Assembly: GCF_000015045.1 (NCBI RefSeq)
Contig: NC_008609.1
Location: forward strand, 3,461,501 to 3,525,500
Direction: 5' to 3'
DNA length: 64,000 nucleotides
Origin: Pelobacter propionicus DSM 2379
GTDB taxonomy: Bacteria > Desulfobacterota > Desulfuromonadia > Geobacterales > Pseudopelobacteraceae
This document shows positions 3,868 through 27,280 of the stretch, piece after piece (the first letter of the stretch is position 1; every line of letters starts with the position of its first letter). A program made the translations under genes and the position numbers. Below the pieces are notes generated by a model, which did not search any database, was not told the DNA's origin, and was given only the letters and a program-made list of their open reading frames with translations.

Positions 3868-6096
3868 ATGAAAACAGACCTCTCGAAAAAATCCCGACGG
3901 CAGGACCGGCTGGCCGAATGGTTCATCAGGATAGGCGGCATACTGGTCATCGTATCGGTTGCCTGGATCCTGGTGATGATCGCCCGGGTCGCGCTGCCGC
4001 TCTTCAACCCGCCCAGGGCCGACATCAGCTCGTCATGCACGCTCCCCTCTCCCCTGAGGGGACAGAGGATGGTGACCAGCGGCGTCGACGATAGCCTGTC
4101 CCGGGTCTTCCTGATGGACGAGAAAGGCTCGCTCCATCTTGTCCAGGCATCCAGCGGCCGGCTGATGGAGTCGCTCACGGTGCCCGCCATCCCTGCCGGC
4201 GCAACCAGGATCGTCTCCGTTGACCATCTGGGAGCATCGACCTGCAACCTGCTCTGGGACAATGGCGCCGTAAGCTCCGTCACTATCTCCTTCACCTCCT
4301 CCGGCGTAGGCTCTGACAAAACGGCTGTTTCAGCGACCCTCACCTCCAATGACGAGCTGGCCTTTCCGGCAGCGAAGCCGGTGGAACGGACCTTCGTGCG
4401 CCGGCAGGACAATGGCGCCCTGAGAGTCGATCAGCTAAAGGATGGGCGCTTCGGCATCCATCAGCGCCTCGTGGAGAAGGACCTGCTGGACAACGAAACC
4501 ACCCGCGACCTCTTCGGGGAAATTACCGACAAGCTGCCCGGAACGGTCACGGCAGCCATACTGGACCAGAAAGGGCACTACCTGTACGCCGGAACCGACA
4601 ACGGCTGGGTCATGCGCTGGGACCTGTCCGACGTGGCCGTCCCGCGGCTGCTCGACACGGTCTCCGCAACCGGAGGCGCGGCCATAACCGCACTCAACCT
4701 GGTTTTGGGCGATGTTTCCCTGGCCATCGGCGACGCACGTGGCGGCTATGCCACCTGGTTCCCGGTCTCCTCCGCCGGGAGCGGCCAGGACAAGCGCCTG
4801 ACCCGCATCCACACCCTGCCGCAACAGGCGGGCGCGGTGACCATGATCGCCCCCTCTCCGCGCAACAAGTCGCTGCTCTCCCTGGATAGCAGGGGAGTCG
4901 TACGCCTGGACCACACCACCTCTGAGCGCACCCTGGTCACCCCCAAGGAGAACTCGTCAGCAGTACTCCAAGCAGCGCTCTCTCCCCAGGGAAATGTCCT
5001 GACCGTTCTGGAGAGTTCGGGAAAGCTCACCACCTGGAATCTGCACATACCGCACCCGGAAATCACCCTGGGAACGCTGTTCGGCAAGGTCTGGTACGAG
5101 GGGTACGACAGGCCGGAGTACGTCTGGCAGTCATCCAGCGCCAACGACGATTTCGAGCCCAAGATGAGCCTGATGCCGCTTCTGTTCGGGACCATAAAGG
5201 CGACCCTCTTCGCCATGCTCTTTGCCATCCCCCTGGCGCTGTGCGGCGCCCTCTACACCAGCCAGTTCATGGCCCCGGCGCTCAAGTCGCGGGTCAAGCC
5301 GGCGGTGGAGATCATGGCGGCCATCCCCTCGGTGGTGGTCGGCTTCCTGGCCGGCCTCTGGCTGGCGCCGCTGGTTGACCATTCCCTGCTGGCGCTGTTC
5401 CTGGCCATGGCCATCGTTCCGCTCCTGATCATCATCTTCCTGCTCTTCTGGAAGCGGGTCAAACCGGCCTCCCGGCTGGATCAGTTGAGCCGTGGCAAGG
5501 AGTTCATCATCCTGATCCCGCTGGCGCTGGTGGGCATACTCATCTCCTGGCAGCTGGGGGGACTGGTGGAGGTCTCGCTCTTCGACAGCGATTTCAAGCA
5601 GTGGCTCTACAGCGTCCTGGGAATCCGCTACGACCAGCGCAACAGCATCATCATCGCCATCGCCCTTGGCTTCGCGGTGATACCGATCATCTTCACCATC
5701 GCCGAGGACGCCATCTCCAACGTGCCGCGCAACCTGACCGCCGCCTCCCTGGCCCTGGGCGCCAGCCGCTGGCAGACCGCCTGGAGGGTCGTGCTCCCCT
5801 CGGCCCTGCCGGGGGTCTTCTCGGCGGTGATGATCGGCTTCGGCCGGGCCATCGGGGAGACCATGATCGTGCTGATGGCCACCGGCAACACACCGATCAT
5901 GAGCTGGAGCATCTTCAACGGCCTGCGCTCCCTGTCCGCCAACATCGCGGTAGAGATACCGGAAGCCCCCCTGGATGGCTCCCTCTACCGGGTGCTGTTC
6001 CTGTCGGCGGTGCTGCTGTTCATCTTCACCTTTGTCATCAACAGCGTCGCCGAGGCGCTGCGCCAGCGCTTCCGCAGGAAGTACGGCCGGTACTGA
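3868..6096 (+). CDS. pstC: Phosphate ABC transporter permease PstC, enlarged form
   Basis: Inner-membrane permease subunit of 742 residues, far longer than the roughly 300-residue E. coli PstC. One membrane helix (about 22-44) precedes a large predicted periplasmic region (about 45-430) with beta-rich repeats resembling a propeller. The ABC permease core with several helices and an EAA loop follows (about 612-640, with NVPRNLTAASLALGAS). Enlarged PstC proteins are known in Geobacter and some gamma-proteobacteria. The gene sits between pstS and pstA. The role of the periplasmic insertion is unknown; a link to PstS docking is only a guess. Confidence 0.9.
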   Translation: MKTDLSKKSRRQDRLAEWFIRIGGILVIVSVAWILVMIARVALPLFNPPRADISSSCTLPSPLRGQRMVTSGVDDSLSRVFLMDEKGSLHLVQASSGRLMESLTVPAIPAGATRIVSVDHLGASTCNLLWDNGAVSSVTISFTSSGVGSDKTAVSATLTSNDELAFPAAKPVERTFVRRQDNGALRVDQLKDGRFGIHQRLVEKDLLDNETTRDLFGEITDKLPGTVTAAILDQKGHYLYAGTDNGWVMRWDLSDVAVPRLLDTVSATGGAAITALNLVLGDVSLAIGDARGGYATWFPVSSAGSGQDKRLTRIHTLPQQAGAVTMIAPSPRNKSLLSLDSRGVVRLDHTTSERTLVTPKENSSAVLQAALSPQGNVLTVLESSGKLTTWNLHIPHPEITLGTLFGKVWYEGYDRPEYVWQSSSANDDFEPKMSLMPLLFGTIKATLFAMLFAIPLALCGALYTSQFMAPALKSRVKPAVEIMAAIPSVVVGFLAGLWLAPLVDHSLLALFLAMAIVPLLIIIFLLFWKRVKPASRLDQLSRGKEFIILIPLALVGILISWQLGGLVEVSLFDSDFKQWLYSVLGIRYDQRNSIIIAIALGFAVIPIIFTIAEDAISNVPRNLTAASLALGASRWQTAWRVVLPSALPGVFSAVMIGFGRAIGETMIVLMATGNTPIMSWSIFNGLRSLSANIAVEIPEAPLDGSLYRVLFLSAVLLFIFTFVINSVAEALRQRFRRKYGRY

Positions 6097-6133
6097 TCAT
6101 CCGGCAGGTGGAGCTGTCCGTAGAGAGCGACTT

Positions 6134-6251
6134 ATCCCTGATCCGTCGTGGTTCCCGGCGAACTGGAGCGACAAGCAGCCGGACTGTTTGAGTCTGCAGG
6201 CGAGTTTCCGGCTGCCGCGGACATGAGCCGTGGAACCACAGGATCAGGGAT
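6134..6251. repeat. Palindromic intergenic element, copy A (pstC-pstA)
   Basis: A long interrupted palindrome fills much of the 244-base gap. The outer arms are ATCCCTGATCC (6134-6144) with GGATCAGGGAT (6241-6251), and GTGGTTCC (6148-6155) with GGAACCAC (6232-6239). The inner arms are GCAGCCGGA (6175-6183) with TCCGGCTGC (6207-6215). Read on the minus strand, the apical core (6183-6207) begins AAACTCGCC and ends CTCAAACAGT, nearly matching the core of the element upstream of argB (26992-27167). The two are copies of one repeat family. Confidence 0.8.
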
Positions 6252-6340
6252 CCGGAGCAAACGAAGGACGGCTTGACCTGCCGAATCCGGAATTTATTGT
6301 TGATGTACCGCACCACTGCACAACCATGAGGTTTGACCCG

Positions 6341-7939
6341 ATGAAAACCTATCTGAAAACCGGCGAACCGTTTGTCCTCCTGACCGGAGCGGCCCTGGCC
6401 CTGGTGCTGCTCATGACCATGACGCTGATCGGCGTGGTCATGACCAATGGCCTGGGCTACTTCTGGCCCCGCGAGCTGGTGCGCTACGAACTGAAGGACG
6501 GCAGCGTCGCCCTGGGGCAGCTGGTTGCCAGCGAAAAGAACCCGGACACCGGCGGCCACCGCCTCCAGCTCAAGGTATCCAACCGTGACGTATTCGGACA
6601 GGATTTCCGCTGGATCGACGAGCAGGAGATCAGCAGCCGAAGCATCCCCAAGAACGCGGTGTTGATTGAGCGCAAAGAACATGGCAACTATGTCGGTTTT
6701 CTGAAAAACGTCCAGGCTGAAGGCCTTGTATCCGAAACAACAGGCGACCCCTGGGAGCTCCTTACCCGGGCCAGGAGTGCCCTGCAGCCCAGGGTCGAGG
6801 CCATCGCTGAACTGAAGGAGAAGATGTCCGACCTGAACCATGAGGCCGAGCAATTGCGCCTGAAGATCCTCAAGCTCGAGTACAACGGGCGCCAGCAGAA
6901 CGCCGCCAGTATCGGAGAGTTGACAGCCACCAGGGAGAACATCCTGACCAGGTTCGACGCGCTCAACGAGCAGATGAGCGCACGGCAGACCGAGCTGGCC
7001 GCGTTCAAGGCTGAGCTTGTGGATGCCGGCGGGGGCCTGAAAGAGGTGGAGCTGACGGAGATTGTCCGGGTACAGCGGCCCAACTCCATGTCCCTTGCGG
7101 CCAAGATAGCCGCCTACGCCGAACGGATTCGCGAACTACTGCTGGACGACCCGCGGGAATCCAACACCGAGGGGGGGCTCTTCCCGGCCATCTTCGGCAC
7201 GGTGATGATGGTGCTCCTGATGAGCGTCTTCTCCCTCCCCTTCGGCGTCATCGCCGCAGTCTATTTGCGGGAATACGCCAAAGACGGTCTGCTGACCCGC
7301 ATGGTGCGCATCGCGGTCAACAACCTGGCCGGCGTCCCCTCCATCGTCTACGGCGTGTTCGGTCTGGGCTTCTTCGTCTACGGCATCGGCGGTAGCCTGG
7401 ACCAGCTCTTCTTTCCTGAGCGACTGCCCACGCCCACCTTCGGCACCGGCGGTATCCTCTGGTCCAGCCTGACCCTGGCGCTTTTGACGGTCCCGGTGGT
7501 AATCATCGCCACGGAAGAATCCCTGGCCTCCATCCCCCGCGGCATCCGCGAGGGTTCCCTGGCCCTGGGAGCGACCAAGTTCCAGACCCTGACGCGAATC
7601 CTGCTCCCCATGGCCACTCCCGGCATCATGACCGGCCTGATCCTCTCCATGGCCCGGGCAGCGGGTGAAGTGGCGCCGCTGATGATCGTGGGGGTGGTCA
7701 AACTGGCGCCGACGCTCCCCTTCGACGGCTACTTCCCCTTCTTCCACATGGACCGCAAGTTCATGCACCTGGGATTCCACATCTATGACGTGGGCTTCCA
7801 GTCACCCAACGTGGAGGCGGCCAAGCCCATGGTCTATGTCACCACCATGCTGCTGATCGCCATCGTGATCGTCGCCAGCAGCCTGGCGATCCGCTTCCGC
7901 ACCAGGATGCGCAAGCGCTACGTAACCTCCAACTTCTGA
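6341..7939 (+). CDS. pstA: Phosphate ABC transporter permease PstA, enlarged form
   Basis: Second membrane subunit of the Pst importer, 532 residues. A membrane helix (about 13-37) is followed by an insertion that includes a strong heptad-rich coiled coil (roughly residues 145-235). The ABC permease core comes next, with an EAA loop containing [20 protein letters not shown]. The ATG at 6341 is chosen because GAGG lies 9 bases upstream and the product starts at the membrane helix; upstream in-frame starts at 6326 and in the palindrome at 6230 are less likely. Enlarged PstA pairs with the enlarged PstC here, so the two insertions may contact each other. That is inference. Confidence 0.9.
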
Positions 7940-26078: not shown

Positions 26079-26957
26079 TCACTTTTGTATCTCGGTCCCG
26101 ATGCCCACGTCGGTGAAGATCTCCAGCAGCACCGCGTGTTCCACCCGGCCGTCGATGATATGGGCCTTTTTCACCCCTTCTTCCAGGGCGTCGGCGCAAC
26201 AGACCACCTTGGGGATCATGCCACCGGTGATGGCCTCCTCGCGGATCAGGCGATGCATGTCCGCCACGGCAATGCTGGAAAGGAGCTGCCCGGCCTTGTC
26301 CTTGACCCCTTCGATGTCGGTCAAAAGGATCAGTTTCTCGGCATTGAGCGCCGCCGCCACCCGGCCAGCCACCAGGTCGGCGTTGATGTTGTAGCTCTCC
26401 CCCTGGGGGCCCACCCCCACCGGCGCGATGACCGGGAGATAGTTGCCGTTTTCCAGTGCCTTGAGCAGGTCGGTGTTGACCTTGACCACGTCCCCCACAT
26501 AGCCCATGTCCACCTGCTCCGTCGTGCCGTCATCACCGACCACATCCTGGAGCAGCTTTTTGGAGAGGAGCAGCGTACCGTCCTTGCCGGACAGACCGAC
26601 GGCCCTGCCACCGTGCTGGTTCAGGTAGCCCACGACCTCCTTGTTGACCTGCCCCACCAGCACCATCTCCACCACCGCCATGGTCTCGCTGTCGGTGACC
26701 CGCATCCCTTTGACGAACTGGGAGACGATACCATAGCGCTTGAGGGTCTGGTTGATCTGCGGCCCACCGCCGTGGACGATGACCGCGTTGATCCCCAGCG
26801 ACCTGAGCATGATCACGTCCAGGGCAAAAGACTCCTTCAGCTTCTCGTCGGACATGGCGTGGCCGCCGTACTTGATGACAAAGGTTTTTCCGGCAAAGCG
26901 CCTGATATAGGGGAGCGCCTCCATCAGGTTGTTTGCCTTCTCAATCAGTTTTTCCAT
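26079..26957 (-). CDS. argB: Acetylglutamate kinase ArgB
   Basis: Phosphorylates N-acetylglutamate, the second step of arginine synthesis and often the arginine-inhibited one. The 292 residues include the [10 protein letters not shown] and VHGGGPQIN phosphate-binding loops and a C-terminal GGMIPK segment. The N-terminal helix (about 1-25, [16 protein letters not shown]) is of the kind found in hexameric, arginine-sensitive forms, so feedback inhibition is plausible. AGAGGA precedes the ATG. It is the first gene of the arg run and has a structured 323-base upstream region. Confidence 0.95.
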
Positions 26958-27280
26958 GGGGTAGTCCTCTGCTGCAACGTTTGAAATTCGTCAGGTGACA
27001 ACCGACTGCGTTCGTGCGGACGGGCTCTTTCTGTAACTCCAGGATTATTTCGCTACAGCCGATAAACTCGCCCTTCGGGCTCAGACAGTATCGGCTGTTG
27101 ACGCTTCATTTCGCCAGGAATTACGACGAAAGAGCCCTGATGCACTCACTCCGGCGGTTGTCACCTGCCCTTTTCAGAATACAGCAAACCTGTATCGGGG
27201 TTGCCTGACTCCCGGCGCCGAAAAAAAAAGCCATCCGCAAAGGTGGCAGTCTAACGCAAAATAAACAAAACCTCAAAAAC
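26958..27280. other. Region between argB and the receiver-kinase gene
   Basis: The region upstream of argB is dominated by the palindromic element at 26992-27167. I do not see a convincing -35/-10 pair for argB. The remaining bases next to the receiver-kinase stop hold an A-rich stretch (about 27223-27231) and no gene. Confidence 0.55.
26992..27167. repeat. Palindromic intergenic element, copy C (upstream of argB)
   Basis: The nested arms are CAGGTGACAACCG (26992-27004) with CGGTTGTCACCTG (27155-27167), GGGCTCTTTC (27022-27031) with GAAAGAGCCC (27128-27137), GTAACTCC (27033-27040) with GGAATTAC (27117-27124, one mismatch), and CAGCCGAT (27056-27063) with ATCGGCTG (27090-27097). The apical core 27064-27089 begins AAACTCGCC and ends CTCAGACAGT. 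It is homologous to the element at 6134-6251 (opposite orientation), with compensatory changes in the stems. Confidence 0.85.

Follow-up and report, generated by a model that had tools for sequence, protein, structure and literature searches.

We found that two palindromic intergenic sequences in a 64,000-nucleotide stretch of the Pelobacter propionicus DSM 2379 genome (hereafter the window) are copies of one dispersed family of about 190 bp, copy A1 belonging to its subfamily A and copy B1 to its subfamily B. The family probably consists of non-autonomous transposons (MITEs) whose structured interior is selected on one strand and is more stable than their ends. The two copies and their neighboring genes lie as follows, with element coordinates given as contig places minus an offset of 3461500 and with some spans and gene names taken from a preliminary description of the window.

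6098..6286, + strand (favored folded strand, sense with pst): element copy B1, from the covariance-model place 3467598-3467786 and a BLAST family of 5
6134..6251, + strand: inner part of B1 (the span of the preliminary description), comprising three helices (lower, middle and inner), the internal loops and the apical loop
26986..27174, - strand (favored folded strand, sense with argB): element copy A1, from the covariance-model place 3488486-3488674 and its BLAST family
27022..27137, - strand: inner part of A1 (the span of the preliminary description)
3868..6096, + strand: pstC-like ORF of 742 aa upstream of B1, named from the preliminary description and homologous gene order
6341..7939, + strand: pstA-like ORF downstream of B1, its start at 6341 picked by alignment with genome G058
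26079..26957, - strand: argB-like ORF of 292 aa adjoining A1, named from the preliminary description

B1 is situated in the pstC-pstA gap, and A1 between a response-regulator/kinase-like ORF and argB. The preliminary description had reported two palindromes that share one core, flanking stems that differ yet pair in both copies, and a GACG word following in each, all of which the sequences confirm. The inner part of B1, read on the minus strand (6134-6251), carries the core AAACTCGCC-TGCAGA-CTCAAACAGT with stems GTGGTTCC/GGAACCAC and CAGCCGG/CCGGCTG, while that of A1, read on the plus strand (27022-27137), carries the core AAACTCGCC-CTTCGGG-CTCAGACAGT with stems GTAACTCC/GGAATTAC, in which there is one C.A mismatch, and CAGCCGAT/ATCGGCTG. 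GACG stands directly after GGAACCAC in B1 and after GGAATTAC in A1. Folded as single-stranded DNA, B1 and A1 each beat 200 of 200 dinucleotide shuffles (z -4.6 and -6.5). The spans first described are real elements but cover only their inner part, as the elements reach approximately 6098-6286 and 26986-27174. In the related genome G057, a long pstC-pstA gap (locus L184) holds a different GC-rich palindrome.

BLAST searches of the host genome (4.24 Mb, 3 contigs) returned 8 long subfamily A matches with A1 as query (85-100% identity to A1) and 5 subfamily B matches with B1 as query (86-100% identity to B1), plus shorter pieces in each case. A covariance model built on the 8 subfamily A copies, termed R1, gave 29 matches, of which 6 were A copies re-read on the reverse strand, leaving 23 places: 8 A copies, 5 B copies, 2 diverged full-length copies, 2 broken or degenerate copies and 6 matches of 67-83 bp. 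Approximately 15 copies in the host are full-length, and the further copies for which the preliminary description had proposed a search are thus found. The six short forms (contig positions 92136-92205, 1001103-1001185, 1342915-1342981, 2719121-2719190, 2924244-2924312 and 2960810-2960878) retain the outer arms and resemble internal deletions; they may constitute a separate short MITE class.

R1 matched in 6 of 76 genomes of the host's family (E<=0.01) and in 28 of 141 genomes of its order (E<=1e-3), where per-genome copy numbers are lower bounds because 18 candidates were scored per genome. Genome G126, which we take to be possibly G. uraniireducens, has 2 R1 matches. Across 84,980 species genomes, the core pattern occurred in at least 117 stretches, many of them in Geobacter-like, Nitrospirota and Nitrospinota genomes and some in other metagenome-assembled genomes; the cross-phylum copies lie mostly in metagenome assemblies, where misbinning is possible. 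When R1 was applied to 34 of these 117 loci, all 34 matched (E<=1e-5; L234 and L238 in part), with the score partly built in by the approximately 24-base pattern used to fetch them, and full-length matches extended well beyond that pattern in L266 (1.2e-24), L221 (9e-23), L277 (1.9e-14) and L220 (5e-12). Three core-pattern loci (L235, L241 and L276) were judged to be chance occurrences, the right-hand motif being missing by eye. The core pattern had 0 matches in viral contigs, and blastn with copy A1 found no match in plasmid and phage collections.

We then examined the ends of the elements for signs of mobility, and MITE identity is firm for the Geobacterales type. In 84 copies, flank information ends on both sides at a 5-bp TTNAA-like word, and the left and right words were identical at 184 of 420 positions, compared to 131.2±9.1 with shuffled partners (maximum 166 in 5000). 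The full 5-bp word agreed in 11 of the 84 copies (shuffled mean 0.5). Inside the duplication word, the left end is CCTANATTCGGCAGTTG, and terminal inverted repeats are present in the family; in A1 and B1 these repeats are degenerate and the 5-bp words are identical at 1 of 5 positions each. The window copies are old as regards target duplication. Carrier genomes often have right ends of the kind CCTAAAAACGGCAGTTG, and this 17-bp MITE end is identical to both ends of the IS1380-type element L172/L191 in a relative, one locus under two names that lies at a contig edge. Another IS1380-type element, L162, is bounded by CCTAAAAACGGC ends and flanked on either side by TTTAA. In G058, a genome of the same genus as the host, the pstC-pstA gap is 2 bp long with no R1 match, compared to 244 bp in the host, and because of this near-empty site B1 appears to have been inserted in the host lineage.

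The end pattern occurred in 6 stretches of viral contigs: L179 and L180 hold another MITE, which shares the CCTAAATTCGGCAGTTG ends and has a TTTAT duplication but differs in its interior, L176-L178 are one near-identical sequence, and neither L176-L178 nor L181 has a second end in the stretch examined. L158, L160 and L170 form another IS1380-type group from related genomes, with CCCAGATTTTCCATTA-like ends approximately 1.45 kb apart.

An element of about 190 bp is too short for a transposase gene. IS1380-family transposases were detected in 21 of 141 order genomes (E<=1e-10), and relatives of the L162 type in 16 of 141, none of which is among the 28 carriers of R1 matches; other IS1380-family matches occurred in 5 of the 28 carriers, mostly as fragments. 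Weak NF033539 matches in G086 and G102 (L146-L149) were accompanied by no element with these ends. A search of the host genome found no IS1380- or L162-type transposase, and the transposase of B1 may have since been lost or have been supplied from elsewhere. Together with the 5-bp duplications, the end identity to an IS1380-type element and the near-empty site, this supports the earlier suggestion of a MITE-like element whose transposase is absent. The companion suggestion, REP/BIME-like elements dependent on a RAYT (Y1 transposase), is scarcely credible: 3 Y1_Tnp matches in the host genome would suit it, but target duplications are present, copy number is unrelated to Y1_Tnp (100 end matches and 0 Y1_Tnp in G135, 0 copies and 3 Y1_Tnp in G058), and none of 12 Y1 loci adjoins a full core, a single loose partial match being present in L345.

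From the tip outward, the interior comprises an apical hairpin, inner stem, internal loop, middle stem, small 1x3 loop, lower stem and second internal loop. The stems vary between groups while the loop motifs are kept (GCTCATTNCGCT, AAACTC..CTCARACAG and GCTNCATTTCGC on the strand of the preliminary description). In L091 and L111, additional 15- to 20-nt segments of one kind separate the inner stem from the apical loop. In an alignment of 86 distinct copies (A4), which was fitted to the model's structure, 91.3% of cells pair and 52 of 53 pairs changed on both sides, with a covariation score of 0.524 compared to a shuffled value of 0.156 and to no more than 0.092 when the arms were slid. Covariation above background, the other check proposed for the family, is therefore present. 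Arms parsed with alignment A4 unused gave a similar picture, own arms pairing at 7.5 of 8 and 6.5 of 7 positions and swapped arms at 5.4 and 4.6 (89 and 103 unique arm pairs), where the right motif was located by approximate matching to the middle helix; the strand tests below used the whole right arm. The parse yielded 141 elements, and 112 after removal of near-duplicates and rows with a short left arm; L299 (+ strand), a loose parse, is left out of the arm-swap, gene-orientation and strand counts. In the Nitrospirota/Nitrospinota copies L232, L249, L266 and L289, the outermost arms vary among copies but still complement each other, and no duplication was recognized in these four.

If only double-stranded DNA or conversion between arms were involved, G.T and A.C mismatches would be expected in equal numbers. 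On the strand read in the preliminary description, isolated mismatches numbered 125 A.C versus 49 G.T with no exclusion and 119 A.C versus 37 G.T outside the conserved motif (85 versus 30 in unique contexts, p=2.9e-7), the latter counted independently of alignment A4. By element, 65 leaned toward A.C, 8 leaned toward G.T and 39 were tied (112 elements), a count that omits positions beyond -50, with the bound set after the table of mismatch positions was known. The A.C:G.T ratio was 77:10 in Geobacterales and 24:10 in Nitrospirota/Nitrospinota; 6 other elements, at 1:0, carry no information. A hand count by position gave 83:10 from -54 to -18 versus 8:16 at -55 and beyond, a contrast suggesting that ends acting at the DNA level enclose a folded single strand. 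Alignment A4 contains 170 A.C and 117 G.T among 4428 cells, 55 of the G.T at one column pair. An A.C mismatch on this strand is a G.U wobble on its complement, and the complement folded better as RNA in 109 of 112 elements (mean 11.6 kcal/mol), an advantage that derives partly from tandem G.A pairs in the loops, which were paired by hand. The strand bias of the leftover mismatches thus indicates that one strand is the selected fold, namely the complement of the orientation first described; wobble cells are few and the bias fits single-stranded DNA equally well. One-strand selection is well supported. The strand read in the preliminary description is the less favored one. The structured-RNA option raised there stands insofar as mismatch bias, RNA folding and covariation all indicate a strand-specific structure, and falls short in that these data do not support RNA over single-stranded DNA; RNA is our favored reading of the selected strand.

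Several explanations other than a MITE with a selected interior have to be weighed against these data and against the setting of the copies among host genes. Among 125 scored copies, the folded strand was sense with both neighbors in 45, antisense in 31, and between divergent or convergent genes in 24 and 25, respectively, with gene orientation resting on a crude ORF rule. At orthologous sites (8 rows), the interior was flipped in 5 and unflipped in 3, the pair L252/L315 scoring once each way, as L252 has two cores. L240, L268 and L289 occupy one orthologous site in three Nitrospirota assemblies, with the interior flipped in L289 and another type of inner stem in L268. A host riboregulator or operon attenuator maintained because it regulates neighboring genes would account for the position of A1 and B1, both in short co-directional gaps with the folded strand sense, and for the excess of sense over antisense copies between co-directional genes. 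However, that excess is not significant, divergent and convergent settings occur at chance frequency, and the interior is flipped at the majority of orthologous rows, making this explanation very unlikely; we rejected a host switch on the near-random gene orientation and flipped interiors. The flips do suit plain MITEs whose arms are kept matched by a mutational process (template switching or conversion between arms), the fold itself being unselected, since they imply that arms recombine, and so do outer arms that vary yet stay complementary, in Nitrospirota copies as well. Conversion should nevertheless also erase the mismatched loops, which are the most conserved parts, and it would not be expected to generate a 65 versus 8 bias tied to the element's own orientation. 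This disfavored reading is unlikely, and a strand-symmetric cruciform or conversion acting as the only process was dropped because of the same bias.

The nature of the selected strand is a closer question. The fold could be one of single-stranded DNA, an extruded or replication-exposed strand recognized by a protein, somewhat as integron attC sites are, and DNA too accommodates stable G.T and tandem G.A pairs. All of the fold evidence speaks to strand specificity as such, and near-random orientation to genes would be expected if transcription were irrelevant. On the other side, RNA is the more typical setting for U.U- and G.U-like mismatches and for large internal loops, and no associated recombinase is known, so we regard single-stranded DNA as possible, if rather doubtful.

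The same core also occurs between other transposon ends, which were scored with a pattern separate from the strand and arm parsing. Exact 9-bp duplications flank CAGTRNTGTCCGG-like ends in L220, L251 and L255; in L277, GTAACTRTTCAGC is accompanied by an exact 8-bp duplication, and in L278, L310 and L325 the 8 bp contain one mismatch; and L328 has an 11-12 bp duplication beside yet another end. A combined duplication and end-repeat score of at least 19 was reached by 10 of 102 elements versus 4 of 400 swaps, and a score of at least 20 by 7 of 102 versus 3 of 400; given the swap control of 4 in 400, L221 and L231 probably score by chance. Divided by core type, duplications occurred in 4 of 5 L220-type and 4 of 9 L277-type copies. 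Exact duplications of at least 5 bp lay beside an end repeat in 33 of 134 elements, compared to 15 matches in up to 268 swaps, and several single rows are chance (e.g. GGATTC in L231 and L265). Ends resembling the CCTGAATCCGTGA of other IS1380-type copies (L150 and L154) were seen in L231, L239 and L265, with 5-bp duplications that are weak or judged by eye. Different duplication lengths imply different transposases, and the 8- and 9-bp types may be IS66-like and IS4-like. Unrelated transposases thus appear to have carried the same core. We tentatively raise the possibility, which we hold to be somewhat short of even, that the core is a self-standing RNA or single-stranded DNA satellite of approximately 165 nt, spread across phyla between unrelated transposase ends and selected for its own fold.

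Under the non-autonomous transposon reading that we prefer, the Geobacterales type has the ends and the 5-bp target duplications of an IS1380-type element. These ends enclose a long imperfect hairpin with covarying helices and fixed loop motifs, one strand of which is marked by the leftover mismatches as the selected fold. That strand would act as a folded single strand, most likely as read-through RNA from neighboring genes, and the tandem G.A internal loops could be recognition sites for a widespread host factor. The benefit would presumably fall to the element, for example through sparing the host operon or stabilizing the transcript, rather than through switching one host gene. The core would be a module that has also been joined to other types of transposon end, and its selection would consequently be independent of any one transposase. 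Among the points that speak against this explanation, L162-type transposases and R1 matches never occur in the same genome among the 141 of the order, and A1 and B1 have no clear target duplication.

The family is apparently undescribed and apparently present in several bacterial phyla. Rfam returned no match to the element, whether with the window at the gathering cut-off or with the loci of 6 copies in E-value mode, and we found no description in the open-licence literature, although genome-paper supplements or work on the Chunjie MITE may contain copies. IS1380 insertion sequences and derived MITEs share with our elements ends starting CCTA.., a 5-bp AT-rich duplication and the 17-bp end found in L172/L191; the present interior differs from those of IS1380-derived MITEs in being a conserved, covarying hairpin rather than a transposase-gene remnant, and in occurring between other ends as well. 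Comparing by description, we know of no ERIC, BOX, nemis/Correia or QMITE family with one core across unrelated transposon ends and phyla. Like our elements, these are short and dispersed, form long hairpins and may be transcribed, as generally understood and as outlined in PMC10969869. The same review describes Chunjie, a MITE found in Geobacter uraniireducens (Chen et al., 2008), as a multicopy element of 178-235 bp, with 38 copies with intact ends reported and one copy in a phosphate uptake operon (PMC10969869). Chunjie thus resembles our family as a multicopy MITE in a Geobacter relative, and B1 likewise sits in a phosphate-uptake operon. By copy number (2 R1 matches in G126, if that genome is G. 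uraniireducens, versus 38) it is probably a different family. According to a legend in PMC2700814, one palindromic family occurs in P. propionicus as well, and copies of the present family may be listed among the multicopy sequences of that paper. The relevant passages and legends of the Geobacter genome papers (PMC2700814, PMC2996986) contain no transposon, covariation or strand analysis of such a family.

MITEs are usually taken as transposon remnants, whereas here the interior is conserved and the ends are exchangeable. A core that proved to be a self-standing satellite would count as a partner or parasite of transposons and not as a transposon in decay. These observations make testable the existence of selected RNA or single-stranded DNA structures in small bacterial mobile elements, and of a host factor that reads them, and the covariance model can be used to annotate unexplained intergenic palindromes in Geobacter-like and Nitrospirota genomes.
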